NCBI RefSeq assembly: GCF_001427025.1
Contig: NZ_LMGA01000001.1
Coordinates: 1,564,042 to 1,628,041 of the forward strand
DNA: 64,000 nucleotides
From: Mesorhizobium sp. Root554
Lineage (GTDB): Bacteria > Pseudomonadota > Alphaproteobacteria > Rhizobiales > Rhizobiaceae
Direction: 5' to 3'
This document shows positions 15,858-20,197 of the stretch, one piece after another; positions within the stretch are counted from its first letter, which is position 1, and every line of letters begins with the position of its first letter. The translations under genes and the position numbers were made by a program. The notes under the pieces are model-generated. The model saw only the letters and a list, made by a program, of their open reading frames with translations. It was not told the DNA's origin and made no database searches.

Positions 15858-15886
15858 GCAAAAGCCGGGGACGCCCCGGCTTTTGC
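15858..15886 (-). terminator. Strong bidirectional terminator downstream of the small lipoprotein
   Basis: A 13-bp perfect stem (GCAAAAGCCGGGG and its complement) with the loop ACG. It has a U-rich 3' arm in either direction. It lies 65 bases beyond the stop of the minus-strand lipoprotein gene and closes the left side of the unfamiliar three-gene cassette. The remainder of 15648-15950 shows no gene. Confidence 0.8.
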
Positions 15887-15950: not shown

Positions 15951-16286
15951 CTATTTGACGACGATTGCGACTGTGCCCGACTGATAGCGCTTTACTTCGG
16001 TTCCGCTGGCGATCCCTGTGCCGTTCACCGCGCGGGTCGGAACGCGTTTCTTGCAATCTTTGCTGACGCGGCTGGACAACCCGCCGTCCGAATATCGCAC
16101 CACCGCCGATTTCGGGATCCGGCCCTGGATCGCGGCAAAGCTCGGCGCCGGAGCATTGCAACCGTCACCGCGATAAGCGGTGATGTGCCTGGTCTCCCCG
16201 ACGCGAAGCTCGACGCTCTTGTCGGCGCTCCCTACGGACACGCACCCACCCAGCAGCAGTCCAGCAACTACAACCAGCTTCCTCAT
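15951..16286 (-). CDS. Small lipoprotein made of the shared SDGG/two-cysteine domain
   Basis: A 111-residue protein whose signal peptide ends in the lipobox LLLGGC (Cys near 15), so it is probably an envelope lipoprotein. The rest is one domain: LRVGETRHITAYRGDGC, YSDGGLSSRVSKDCKKRVPTRAV and a final GTVAIVV strand. The same order of motifs and the same two cysteines occur in the C-terminal, probably periplasmic, parts of the two genes divergently encoded next to it (16497 and 17303). No known family is recognised. A role as ligand, competitor or sensor partner is my inference. Confidence 0.75.
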   Translation of the reverse strand: MRKLVVVAGLLLGGCVSVGSADKSVELRVGETRHITAYRGDGCNAPAPSFAAIQGRIPKSAVVRYSDGGLSSRVSKDCKKRVPTRAVNGTGIASGTEVKRYQSGTVAIVVK

Positions 16287-16496
16287 AGGAACCCCCTTGA
16301 ATCAATCGGCAACCAACCCGACGGACCATCCGCGAGCGCAACGCCGAGATACGTGCAACCGAGCGGAGAAATGGGTTCGCAGATCAAATGAAAACTTGAG
16401 CAATTCTCGGAAACTCCAGAAAAATGCGTTTCATGAAGATTGCTATCCTTATGAATTATATCGTAATTTTCCGTGACGAGAACCGGGGGCCTCGTT

Positions 16497-17273
16497 TTGA
16501 AGGAAGATGACTGGGACGACTTTCAGACCTGGAGCCAGTTGTTCGACGTCCTGTGCAAGCGGGACGGTCACTACGACAACGCATCGCTGGCGAGCGAATA
16601 TTGCAACCATGTCGGCAAAAACGGTCGCGACAACTTCGACGCCATCCAGAAGAACTTGAGAAGCTGGCGGCTTGGTCGCCATCTGCCCTTGCGCCGCAAC
16701 ATGATGGTTCTGGCGAAACTGCTCGACGTCGAGCGGGACCCCTGCCTCAACAACCGGTGGATGCACCTCTATGCCGTGGCCCGGGGTGAACCCGCCATGG
16801 AGCCAGCGATGCAGCAGGAAGACGCAGGGCGACAGCCTGTCGCGGCCGCTGAACCGGCGAAGCGCCGGCGGCCGATTTGGCATTGGCTGGCAATCGGTGC
16901 CCTCGCCACCGGCACTGGTTTCACGTTCGATTTTGCGGTCGACCGCTGGGCTTTCAAGAAATTGCCGATGATCGGCTATGACGCGCGCGTGAGAATGGTG
17001 GTCGGTGAATCGCGGCTCATCCATGGCGATCGTGGCGACTGCGACGGCAGGCCCCCGGACTGGTACTATACCCTGCCGCGGGTGCCGGTCAGCGCGCTTG
17101 GCACGTTTTCGGATGGCGGCCTCGCCCGGAAAATGAGCAATTTCTGCAACCGTGTCGTTGAAGTGCGCGCCGTCCGCTTCACCGCGACCGACGCCGGCAT
17201 GGAGGAGATAAGGCTGCTCGACGATTTCATGAAAATCGAGGTCACGGGCGCCGGCCATCCCAGGCAGGAGTAG
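16497..17273 (+). CDS. Membrane-anchored HTH-like protein with C-terminal SDGG/two-cysteine domain (paralogue 1)
   Basis: A 258-residue protein in three parts. Residues 1-95 form a cytoplasmic domain with an XRE-like stretch NLRSWRLGRHLP..MMVLAKLLDV. A KRRR-preceded transmembrane helix follows at about 125-145 (IWHWLAIGALATGTGF). The rest is a predicted periplasmic domain with VVGESRLIHGDRGDC and FSDGGLARKMSNFC. I chose TTG 16497 because it aligns with the ATG of the downstream paralogue (LKEDDW versus MEEADW) and has GGGGG eight bases upstream; GTG 16473 is the alternative. The layout resembles ToxR/CadC-type one-component regulators, but DNA binding is inferred only. Confidence 0.75.
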   Translation: MKEDDWDDFQTWSQLFDVLCKRDGHYDNASLASEYCNHVGKNGRDNFDAIQKNLRSWRLGRHLPLRRNMMVLAKLLDVERDPCLNNRWMHLYAVARGEPAMEPAMQQEDAGRQPVAAAEPAKRRRPIWHWLAIGALATGTGFTFDFAVDRWAFKKLPMIGYDARVRMVVGESRLIHGDRGDCDGRPPDWYYTLPRVPVSALGTFSDGGLARKMSNFCNRVVEVRAVRFTATDAGMEEIRLLDDFMKIEVTGAGHPRQE

Positions 17274-17302
17274 CGCCTTCAGGACAGCAAGGAGGGAGCC
17301 AT

Positions 17303-18148
17303 ATGGAAGAAGCCGATTGGAGACAGTTCAGCCAGTGGCATCTGCTTTTCGACGAGCTGTGCAATCGGGCCGGCTTCTATGACGATGCGACGCTTGCTGG
17401 AGCTTACTGCACGCTCACTCAAAGCAAGGGGCAAAAGCAATTTGAAACGACGGTCCGCAACCTGAACAATTGGCGTTCGGGCCGTCATGTCCCCCGTGCG
17501 GGCAATTTGCGCATCCTGTGCAGGTTGCTGGATATCGCCGGCAATCCTGAACTTCAGGTCCAATGGAACGAACTCTACAAGCGCGCCAAGGACCTTGAAG
17601 TCGTTCGGCCGGCGGCATTCGGATCGCCTTTGCCCGTCGTGTCCCGATTTCCCGCCTCCGGCTATGTTGACTTACCCGCCACGACCTCGGCAACCCTTAT
17701 CCCGACTGCCTATTACGGCTTCGGTGCAAGACCGAAGCGCTGGTCGCATCTGCAGGCGCTTTTGGGCGGGCTCGTTCTCCTGTGCATCGGTGTGGCGGCA
17801 GGCGCAGTCCTCGGCGCTTCGGGCTGGCGTCCTTGGGCCGGACCGGCGGACAACGCACCGATCATCGCCTTCAATCCAAAGATTGACATGAAGGTCGGTG
17901 AATCGCGGCCCATTTACGCGGAACGCAGCGATTGCGGAAAACTTCCGCGCGATTGGGCCGAGGTTCGGGCCGAACTGCCCTTTGCACGGACCGGCGAATT
18001 TTCGGACGGCGGACTGGCCCGCCGTTTCTCGAAATTCTGCAAAGGCTTGACCCCTGCACGCGCCATTGTCTTCACCGCTACCAAAGCCGGCATCGAGGAA
18101 TTCGAAATCCAGGGCGATTTCTTCAAAATGACTGTAACGCCGCCCTAA
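17303..18148 (+). CDS. Membrane-anchored HTH-like protein with C-terminal SDGG/two-cysteine domain (paralogue 2)
   Basis: A 281-residue paralogue of the preceding gene, roughly 40% identical by eye over the N-terminal 95 residues (WRSGRHVP..LRILCRLLDI). The linker is longer, about 95-145. A transmembrane helix lies at about 153-175 (LQALLGGLVLLCIGVAAGAVLGA). The outer domain has MKVGESRPIYAERSDC and FSDGGLARRFSKFC, then IVFTATKAGIEEFEI. The start ATG has an excellent AGGAGGG. It follows paralogue 1 by 29 bases, so the two are probably one operon. The function is unknown; see the findings. Confidence 0.78.
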   Translation: MEEADWRQFSQWHLLFDELCNRAGFYDDATLAGAYCTLTQSKGQKQFETTVRNLNNWRSGRHVPRAGNLRILCRLLDIAGNPELQVQWNELYKRAKDLEVVRPAAFGSPLPVVSRFPASGYVDLPATTSATLIPTAYYGFGARPKRWSHLQALLGGLVLLCIGVAAGAVLGASGWRPWAGPADNAPIIAFNPKIDMKVGESRPIYAERSDCGKLPRDWAEVRAELPFARTGEFSDGGLARRFSKFCKGLTPARAIVFTATKAGIEEFEIQGDFFKMTVTPP

Positions 18149-18180: not shown

Positions 18181-20094
18181 CTAAATCGCCACCTGCGTGC
18201 CGATTTCCACCACGCGCCCGGTTGGGATCTGGAAATACTCCGTCGCGTCGGCGGCGCTGCGGGCCAGTCCGATGAACAGCTTGTCCTGCCACACCGGCAT
18301 TCCGGAATTCGGCGACGATTTCAGCGAACGGCGCGACAGGAAGAACGACGTCGTCATGATGTCGAACTTCCAGCCCTGCTTGCGGCAGATCGCCAGGGCG
18401 CGCGGGATGTTGGGCTGTTCCATGTAGCCGAAGGTCAGGCTGACGCGCATGAACAGGTCGTTGATGGGTTCCATCTTGACGCGTTCACTATCGGGCACCA
18501 CCGGCTGCGGCGCCGTCACGACGGACAGGATGACGTTCTGCTCATGCAGCACCTTGTAGTGCTTGAGGCTGTGCATCAGCGCCGTCGGCGCGCTTAGCGG
18601 ATCGCTGGTCAGGAACACCGCCGTGCCCGAAACGAGCTGCGGCTTCTTTTTCAGCAGGTTGGCCGCGAGAAAATCGAGCGGCACCTCGTTGCGGCGCGTC
18701 TTGTCGAAGAGATAGCGGCTGCCCTTGATCCAGGTGACCATGATCAGTCCCATGACGCAGGCGACGCCGATGGAAACCCAGCCGCCCTCGAGGAATTTGA
18801 CGATGTTGGCCGAGAAGAAGCCGATGTCGATGACGCCGAACAGGATCGCCAGCGCCAGCGCGCCGGCAAGCTGCCACTTCCACATGAAGCGCATGACGAT
18901 GAACAGCAAAATGGTGGTCATCAGCATCTCGCCGGTAACCGAAATGCCGTAGGCGGACGCCAGCGAACTCGAATCGCCGAACCCGACGACCAGCAGCATC
19001 ACCATGATCGCAATGAGCAGGTTGACGCGCGGCAGGTAGATCTGGCCGGACTGCATTTCAGAGGTGTGGCGCACTTCGAAGCGCGGCAGAAGATTTAGCT
19101 GGACGGCCTGCCGCGTCAGTGAAAACGCTCCCGAGATGACCGCCTGGCTGGCGATGACGGTCGCCGCCGTCGCCAGGGCGACCATCGGCACCAGCGCCCA
19201 GTCCGGCAGCATCTCGAAGAACGGGCTTTGCGGCATGATCACCTGCGTCAGCACGAAGGCGCCCTGACCGAAGTAGTTCAGCAGAAGGCACGGAAAGACG
19301 ATGGCGAACCAGGCCATCACGATCGGCCGGCGGCCGAAGTGGCCGAGATCGACGTAAAGCGCCTCGGCGCCGGTAACGGCCAGGAAAACCGCCCCTACGG
19401 TCAGGAAGGCGACGTCCGACCGTTCCACCAGATAGGCGATGGCGTAGTAGGGATTGACGGCATAGAGCACGGTCGGATCGTCGGCGATGTGAATCAGCCC
19501 GGCCACGCCGAGCGCCAGGAACCACAGCGCCGTGATGGGTCCAAAGACGATCGCAACCCGGCCCGTGCCGAAACGCTGGACGGCGAACAGGCAGGCGAGG
19601 ATCACCAGTGTGATCGGCACCACATAAGGATCGAACGCCGGCGTGACGACGCCGAGGCCCTCAACGGCGGAGAGCACCGAGATTGCAGGCGTGATGACCG
19701 CGTCGCCGAAGAACAGCGATGCCCCGCACAGGCCGATGCCCAGGACCAGCTTCGATCCGGCCGGATAGGCGCTGCGCGCCAGCGCCATCAGCGAAAGCGT
19801 TCCGCCCTCGCCCTTGTTGTCGGCGCGAAGCACGAACGCCACGTATTTGATGGTGACGATGATGGTGAGCGCCCAGACGATGAGCGACAGCACGCCGAGC
19901 ACGTCGCTGCGCGATACGGCGCCCTCCGCCGTATGCAGCGCTTCGCGAAACGCATAGATCGGGCTGGTGCCGATGTCGCCGTAAACGACACCCAGAGCGC
20001 CCAGCATCAGCACGCGCGTGCTTTGTTGCTTGACCTCGGAATGGCTCGGCTGTTCGGCGGCTTCCGCCTCCCCAGCGCCATTGGCAAGGACCAT
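18181..20094 (-). CDS. kup: KUP-type potassium uptake protein
   Basis: A 637-residue proton-coupled K+ importer of the KUP/HAK family. The N-terminal membrane part has [23 protein letters not shown] near residue 35, the family signature, and about twelve helices. A C-terminal cytoplasmic domain of about 170 residues ends [15 protein letters not shown] 20094 has GGAG eight bases upstream; a GTG three codons earlier is also open. It stands alone facing the SDGG cassette. Confidence 0.95.
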
Positions 20095-20197
20095 CAGGTA
20101 CACTCCATTAAGCGGGCGGTGCTCTACGCTTGCTGCAATGCAATATCAAGTGCCTTAACGGCATGTCGGGGTTTGCGCCTTGCGCTTGCAGCCGTCA

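Follow-up and report, generated by a model that had tools for sequence, protein, structure and literature searches.

Introduction

ToxR and CadC use an OmpR-type winged helix-turn-helix (HTH), RodZ joins an HTH to a membrane helix and a small periplasmic beta domain, XRE/cI-type controller proteins and DdrO are soluble and mostly bind inverted repeats, and envelope sensors of the RcsF/NlpE type are lipoproteins that may signal via contact with an inner-membrane protein. Here we analysed a three-gene cassette in a 64,000-nucleotide stretch of the genome of the soil bacterium Mesorhizobium sp. Root554 (contig NZ_LMGA01000001.1, positions 1,564,042 to 1,628,041; hereafter the window), encoding two predicted membrane-anchored HTH proteins, P2 and P3, and a lipoprotein (P0001) related to their C-terminal domains. 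We consider it probable that the cassette is a local, autoregulated, membrane-bound one-component circuit, which is the best explanation of the comparative sequence data, its operator and its feedback by the lipoprotein included; it appears to be a so far undescribed mode of envelope sensing.

In layout, P2 and P3 resemble the transmembrane one-component regulators (TTRs; ToxR, TcpP, CadC), a known and widespread class whose members combine a DNA-binding domain, a single membrane helix and an extracytoplasmic sensor (PMC10269533), all three being predicted in P2 and P3. Their HTH differs from that of ToxR and CadC in being predicted as XRE/cI-type and in matching no Pfam model at significance; since the census identified DNA-binding domains by Pfam models, it would probably have missed this family (PMC10269533). 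HigX of Caulobacter, an alphaproteobacterial membrane-associated regulator that binds envelope-gene promoters, has a LytTR domain, four membrane helices, no periplasmic domain and an inverted-repeat site (PMC13384398), whereas P2 and P3 are predicted to combine an HTH, one helix and an immunoglobulin-like (Ig-like) periplasmic domain with a candidate direct-repeat site. RodZ shares the layout of P2 and P3, but these lack HTH_25 and DUF4115, and the conserved repeat upstream of their genes suggests transcriptional control. The XRE/cI controllers and DdrO are alike in the predicted N-domain fold (Z 6.7-7.8), whereas P2 and P3 are predicted to be membrane-anchored and their candidate site consists of direct repeats. 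The likeness to RcsF/NlpE-type sensors lies in a lipoprotein that may signal by contact; the cassette lipoprotein differs in being a paralogue of the regulator's own sensor domain, and its contact would be with that regulator. One-component membrane regulators are already known; what is new here is the GGAA repeats upstream of genes of the P2/P3 family. These predicted membrane-spanning and probably DNA-binding proteins form an undescribed family; we found no paper on it in the open-access literature, which is not proof of absence.

Results

The lipoprotein and both regulators share a two-cysteine domain

Searched against its own genome, P3 found only itself, P2 (N-terminus 40%, E 3.9e-23; C-terminus 45%, E 1.8e-22) and the lipoprotein (35%, E 7.1e-9), and profiles of the two domains recovered three copies of the C-terminal and two of the N-terminal one. 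The first-pass annotation, made from the sequence of the window, had aligned the C-terminal parts of the three proteins and placed two cysteines at matching positions in each. Both observations stood: the similarity exceeds chance, the listed motifs are alignable (VGE, R..C, SDGG, C, RA and a closing V strand), and exactly two cysteines were present in 53 of the 53 C-domains counted, a number that fits a disulfide. By alignment, the lipoprotein and the C-terminal domains of P2 and P3 are homologous.

Structures were predicted for P3 from 32 aligned members and for the lipoprotein from 17, and P2 was read by its alignment with P3. The P3 model consists of a five-helix domain (residues 12-101), a low-confidence linker, a helix (147-172), which agrees with the annotated transmembrane helix behind basic residues, and a beta domain (193-279); an HTH with one membrane helix is the predicted layout common to all 32 members. 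In the lipoprotein and P3 models the beta domain has the same order of elements, E-E-H-E-E-E-E, which supports a single predicted Ig-like fold for the two, with P2 aligning to them, rather than the unrelated C-terminal folds that the annotation had named as its counter-case. The likeness of the C-domain to Ig-like domains is weak (Z up to 6.8, several Ig-like chains among the rows and none outstanding), and there was no convincing Pfam match. The lipobox, read by eye, is LGGC in P0001, and the eight further linked lipoproteins have LSGC, LAGC or ATGC. All nine carry V or T directly behind the lipid cysteine, which under the E. coli +2 rule is compatible with outer-membrane sorting.

No characterised family was matched; the annotation, too, had recognised none for either domain. 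For the three proteins, Pfam, NCBIfam and PHROGs gave nothing of weight (best PHROG E 0.013, of unknown function), the PDB searched by sequence gave no match of weight, and PADLOC gave one marginal match only (E 0.069, 10 bits); Pfam run on all members gave no convincing match, families being matched by single members only. Membership of ToxR/CadC was rejected, Trans_reg_C matching none of the 32 members at E <= 1. Membership of RodZ was rejected likewise, neither HTH_25 nor DUF4115 reaching E <= 1 in the 32 regulators or in the 17 lipoprotein and secreted members, and so was that of HigX/LytTR, for which LytTR gave nothing at E <= 1 and the model has a single membrane helix. In the plasmid record of Rhizobium sp. 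WL3 the family's copy is annotated as a hypothetical protein.

P2 and P3 carry a predicted XRE/cI-type HTH

The N-domain of P3 was confidently predicted as a five-helix XRE/cI-type HTH, with residue blocks 11-100 at a predicted local distance difference test (pLDDT) score of 93-97. Its structural matches were DdrO (6jq1, Z 7.8, root-mean-square deviation 2.6 over 70 residues; 6rnx, 7.6) and the controller proteins C.BclI (2b5a, Z 7.0), C.AhdI (1y7y, 6.7) and C.Csp231I (4jqd, 6.7). Among the 50 structural rows listed, those covering the N-domain were XRE/cI-type or other HTH DNA-binding or related proteins, and none was a winged HTH. With Foldseek alone neither model had a match at E <= 0.001, and the structural reading comes from a VIA-align second look, which is not an independent search. 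The P3 model thus bears out the XRE-like HTH proposed at the N-terminus, and the predicted HTH, membrane helix and sensor domain together support the annotated pair of one-component membrane regulators.

Within the HTH of P3, Cys36 is present in 32 of 32 aligned members and Cys20 in at least 90%, and 34 of the 35 N-domains contain two or more cysteines; these near-invariant residues of a predicted cytoplasmic domain are possibly structural, redox or metal-related. Loci L045 and L046 (genomes G367 and G252) hold HTH open reading frames (ORFs) with no evident membrane helix or C-domain, beside a gene resembling an Rrf2-type regulator; we read them as decayed or soluble versions.

The pair and the lipoprotein recur as a unit at different sites

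The counts of genomes include the window's own, and those for the order, class and phylum are lower bounds, because only the best-looking candidates of each genome (about 13-18) were scored. Some match to P3 was present in 11 of 101 relatives, with the full cassette only in the window and in G013 and G042, of the same genus; G070 has a stand-alone domain copy and the remaining matches were weak. In the order, 397 genomes were scanned; the C-domain had matches in 14 of them, strong ones in 11, and the N-domain in seven. The class sample yielded 5 genomes out of 385 and the phylum sample 2 out of 299, the second match being weak. A named species collection yielded 18 loci in Aquamicrobium, Mesorhizobium, Nitratireductor, Shinella, Pelagibacterium, Rhizobium, Pannonibacter, Chelatococcus and a Hyphomicrobiales metagenome-assembled genome (MAG); loci L049, L050, L061 and L064 are genomes G013, G042, G185 and G174. 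On these profile matches, family members occur across several alphaproteobacterial families, singly or as a P2+P3 pair. From the weak P3 matches in relatives (L008-L014), L008, L012 and L014 were set aside as linker, membrane-helix or unrelated-frame similarity, and the weak C-domain matches in G096, G131 and G383, together with G844 (a spurious-looking ORF), were set aside as chance.

The complete set of lipoprotein, P2 and P3 is present in nine loci (the window, L048-L052, L054, L056 and L057), confirming that both domains co-occur in other genomes. The window and L048-L050 share the neighbours ilvC, TetR, kup and pdxJ, none of which lies within 6 kb on either side in the other five; by this comparison the pair and the lipoprotein are a unit that recurs at different chromosomal sites. 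The P2 and P3 reading frames overlap in L051, L052 and L054. A linked lipoprotein is missing from four P2+P3 loci (L055, L058-L060), in two of which (L059, L060) its gene lies elsewhere in the genome, and the lipoprotein therefore accompanies the pair in 11 of 13 P2+P3 genomes (nine linked, two unlinked). In the single-regulator genomes L053, L061, L062, L064 and L065 no further C-domain was found by the search for unlinked copies, which took 16 of the 18 named loci (all except L048 and L049).

In a tree built on only 88 columns, P2 forms one clade and P3 another, except for the Shinella copy, which groups with P2 (P2 of L049, L058 and L060 was dropped from the alignment, and P3 of L060, being in two frames, also from the tree). 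That P3, in Mesorhizobium sediminum (L060:5983-6785), lies in two overlapping frames, representing a broken gene or a sequencing error. L078, an IMG/VR contig, carries a full-length single-regulator relative in a viral collection, from a virus, a prophage or bacterial carry-over. Stand-alone two-cysteine domains were seen in other alphaproteobacteria (L023, L028, L029, L032-L034, L067, L069 and L080), the first eight with an apparent signal peptide; L080 is a plasmid gene in Pseudosulfitobacter whose function is unannotated.

A tandem GGAA repeat lies upstream of most regulator genes

When the divergent intergenic region was aligned over the nine loci, one block stood out, CGGAAAnTnCGGAAAAA. 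Tandem GGAA repeats lie about 70-110 bp upstream of most regulator genes, a similar tandem preceding most of the other regulators as well, with the exception of L061. An unbiased scan for direct repeats of 4-mers (spacings 5-24, 200 bp upstream, 20 regulator genes after the near-copies L049, L060 and L065 were dropped from 23) returned GAAA at 9 bp in 16 of 20 upstream regions and GGAA at 9 bp in 14 of 20, whereas in 200 shuffles no combination of 4-mer and spacing reached more than 5 of 20. The repeat was found before none of eight stand-alone secreted-domain genes, in whose genomes the HTH search found none. GGAA-9-GGAA occurred in 18 of 25 regulator upstream regions, near-copies included. 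Among 8302 background windows taken from these loci its frequency was 0.5%, and it was 0.9% in the subset of 862 whose GC was below 0.58. The strict form GGAA-N5-GGAAA had 17 matches when both strands of 22 loci (227,824 bases) were searched; 16 of these matches, from 14 loci, precede a regulator gene. No site in the window's genome other than the intergenic copy fits the candidate operator with one mismatch or none. The relaxed pattern was settled on once the upstream regions had been read.

A -35-like hexamer, TTGC or TTCCGA, starts 31-32 bp after the first GGAA in 12 of 13 P2+P3 loci, the TTCCGA alternative (L051, L052) having been added after the alignment was seen. With this distance and a 17-bp spacer, the GGAA block would lie near -60, a usual position for an activator; the promoter scan did not list the putative P2 promoter. 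Upstream of the two unlinked lipoprotein genes, which are closely similar, TTTTCC and TTTCC at 10 bp and the adjacent conserved bases are kept. In L054, L056 and L057 a second GGAA pair, at about 10 bp, lies upstream of P2 inside the putative -35/-10 spacer and could give autorepression.

Divergent neighbours are often apparently exported

In 16 of 22 regulator loci (L049 dropped) the divergent neighbour appears to be exported, with a signal peptide or lipobox. It is the cassette lipoprotein in eight of the 16, and in the distant family of G789 (L070) it is a secreted copy of the sensor domain. L053 has a secreted protein with a weak Big_9 match below the cut-off, with a look-alike in L055, and other small exported neighbours occur in L063, L064, L065, L030 and L066, that of L066 with a DUF995 match just above the Pfam cut-off. 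DUF995-like exported proteins recur by single-regulator relatives (L062:7846-8244, L064:5038-5409, L065:5079-5450, L066:360-728, L079:5846-6244); L062 and L064 are just below the cut-off that L066 passes, L065 is alike by eye and L079 is so assigned by annotation.

Layout of the locus

The three genes lie where they had been annotated (Table 1), P2 and P3 parallel to each other and both divergent from the lipoprotein gene. The cassette is flanked by a TetR gene and by kup (18181-20103, -), which is convergent with P3 and faces the cassette from the right, as the annotation had it. Its 'strong terminator' on the left was upheld in part: the hairpin is strong (-35.4 kcal/mol for the surrounding 61-nt stretch, z -4.76), but its T-run sits inside the stem and the terminator scan did not have it among its calls.

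Table 1 Features of the cassette, in positions of the window
Feature	Position	Strand	Basis
Lipoprotein gene (P0001, 111 amino acids): signal peptide, lipobox LGGC, then one two-cysteine Ig-like domain	15951..16286	-	model mean pLDDT 87.2
Two-cysteine Ig-like domain of the lipoprotein	15954..16214	-	profile match E 4.7e-38
Intergenic region of 210 bp, common to the divergent genes and containing a conserved block	16287..16496	.	nine-locus alignment
Candidate operator CGGAAACTCCAGAAAAA: two GGAA-type half-sites, 9-bp period, the second AGAA here	16408..16424	+	alignment and genome scan
Putative P2 promoter TTGCTA, 17 bp, GTAATT	16440..16468	+	alignment; weak by consensus
P2 (P0002, 258 amino acids), TTG start: N-terminal HTH, one likely membrane helix, two-cysteine Ig-like domain	16497..17273	+	alignment with P3
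N-terminal XRE/cI-type HTH of P2 (predicted)	16497..16787	+	profile match E 1.4e-43
C-terminal two-cysteine domain of P2	16989..17246	+	profile match E 5.3e-39
P3 (P0003, 281 amino acids): N-terminal HTH, linker, membrane helix, two-cysteine Ig-like domain	17303..18148	+	model mean pLDDT 84.8
N-terminal XRE/cI-type HTH of P3 (predicted), helices 12-22, 28-38, 44-58, 66-75, 82-101	17303..17605	+	predicted model and structural matches
Predicted P3 membrane helix, residues 147-172, basic residues before it	17741..17818	+	model and sequence
C-terminal two-cysteine Ig-like domain of P3	17882..18139	+	profile match E 2.0e-40; model
Strong hairpin GCAAAAGCCGGGG-ACG-CCCCGGCTTTTGC beyond the 3' end of the lipoprotein gene, possibly a terminator in both directions	15858..15886	.	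folding energy

Discussion

Computation gave the domain homology, the predicted folds, the conserved gene unit, the conserved repeat and the apparently exported neighbours. From these we propose that P2 and P3 would each place an XRE/cI-type HTH in the cytoplasm and a two-cysteine Ig-like domain in the periplasm, joined by one membrane helix, and that they probably act together, as a hetero-oligomer produced from one operon. Their HTHs would probably bind the tandem GGAA half-sites, with their 9-bp period, and this binding may drive or tune both their own operon and the divergent lipoprotein gene; since the candidate operator lies in the intergenic region common to the pair and the lipoprotein gene, the switch would mainly control itself and its exported neighbour. 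The periplasmic domains may sense some envelope condition. As a paralogue of the same domain, the lipoprotein is a natural candidate to bind them, and through such periplasmic contact between domains it would probably feed back on the sensors; a V or T at +2 would, by the E. coli rule, send it to the outer membrane, so that the contact could serve as a readout of trafficking or of the spacing of the envelope. Comparison of the loci supports the steps as far as the operator, and from there DNA binding, activation from the upstream site, the heteromer, the disulfide and the feedback are what we infer.

Several observations weigh against this circuit. The strict repeat is missing from 7 of the 25 upstream regions (window, L053, L057, L061, L031, L070, L078), and in L057, L061, L031 and L070 the relaxed form is missing too. 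The GGAA block might instead belong to a core promoter or be bound by some other regulator of wider reach, a possibility which we rate as rather improbable: it would account for the fixed distance to the -35-like hexamer in the P2+P3 loci, a distance not seen in the single-regulator loci, and for the related element that stays upstream of the unlinked lipoprotein genes, before which the 9-bp pattern itself was not found. It would also suit the excess in ten other genomes, where GGAAN5GGAAAA matched 240 times against 155 for the reversed control (among the matches listed), although on these figures most matches are chance. The excess there is largest in G042 (31 vs 13), G273 (46 vs 19) and G553 (40 vs 23), where a wider regulon is possible. 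In the window's own genome, however, two mismatches gave six matches and eight for the reversed control, and this lack of excess, which weighs against the proposed circuit, also speaks against a wider regulator. The block, moreover, tracks the regulator genes across families, no other common upstream sequence being seen by eye, and is absent before the eight stand-alone domain genes, whose genomes yielded no family HTH. The HTH itself has no significant sequence-family match (HTH_3 or related models in 1 of 32 members, E 0.2), and Z-scores of 7-8 alone could reflect a common helical arrangement, the telling point being that the rows for the N-domain are HTH proteins. If P2 and P3 were RodZ-like structural proteins, the HTH would be a protein-protein module within an envelope scaffold that has no role in transcription; the same layout of HTH, membrane helix and small beta domain would fit, as would the protein contact in which the HTH of RodZ acts. 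This seems unlikely to us, given the absence of HTH_25 and DUF4115 at E <= 1 from the 32 regulators, the conserved tandem repeat upstream of the genes, and an HTH found sporadically, in 7 of 397 genomes of the order with the window's included and with the best-looking candidates of each genome scored, unlike a housekeeping shape protein.

The lipoprotein may be only a regulated output or a stand-alone effector, with P2 and P3 sensing otherwise and the shared domain reflecting ancestry rather than contact; we give this a chance not far short of even. The lipoproteins form one clade on their own long branch outside P2+P3 (its join with L069 may be a long-branch effect), and the exported divergent neighbours at other loci show no such domain. 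On this tree a recent split-off of the lipoprotein from P2 or P3 was rejected, its domain being placed as a deep paralogue of the sensor domain. The first-pass proposal that the sensor domain is also made as a free lipoprotein therefore holds as to homology, but the lipoprotein is not simply the same sensor released. Two P2+P3 MAGs (L055, L058) yielded no lipoprotein, six of the 22 loci (L031, L058-L062) have no exported divergent neighbour, and signal peptides were judged by eye throughout. Against an output-only role stand the sharing of a domain between regulator and exported neighbour in two distant settings, the cassette and G789/L070, and the presence of the lipoprotein alongside P2+P3 also in genomes where its gene is not linked to theirs. 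A toxin-immunity, toxin-antitoxin or phage-defence cassette, finally, would be small, patchy and found at different sites, as this one is, and one relative lies on a viral-collection contig; with only one marginal PADLOC match and weak PHROG matches, and a conserved layout that is a regulator's, we regard such a cassette in place of an envelope regulator as highly improbable. For all of these comparisons the loci are related, and the counts are thus not independent.

With the autoregulated circuit as the preferred explanation, a broader suggestion can be made, which we put forward tentatively and on balance with more doubt than belief: that this is a new family of membrane-spanning transcription regulators in which each member controls a divergent exported protein via tandem GGAA sites and in which, in at least two lineages, the output is itself the sensor domain in free form, which the sensors would read back across the envelope as feedback or surveillance. 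Since neither domain matched a model here, Pfam-based counts of regulators are suggested to miss members. How a transcription factor acts from the membrane and how a lipoprotein reports the state of the envelope are open questions for which few systems have been studied, and this cassette would offer a compact case, with a regulator pair, a candidate operator and a paralogous lipoprotein within 2.3 kb and simpler one-regulator versions in other genera.

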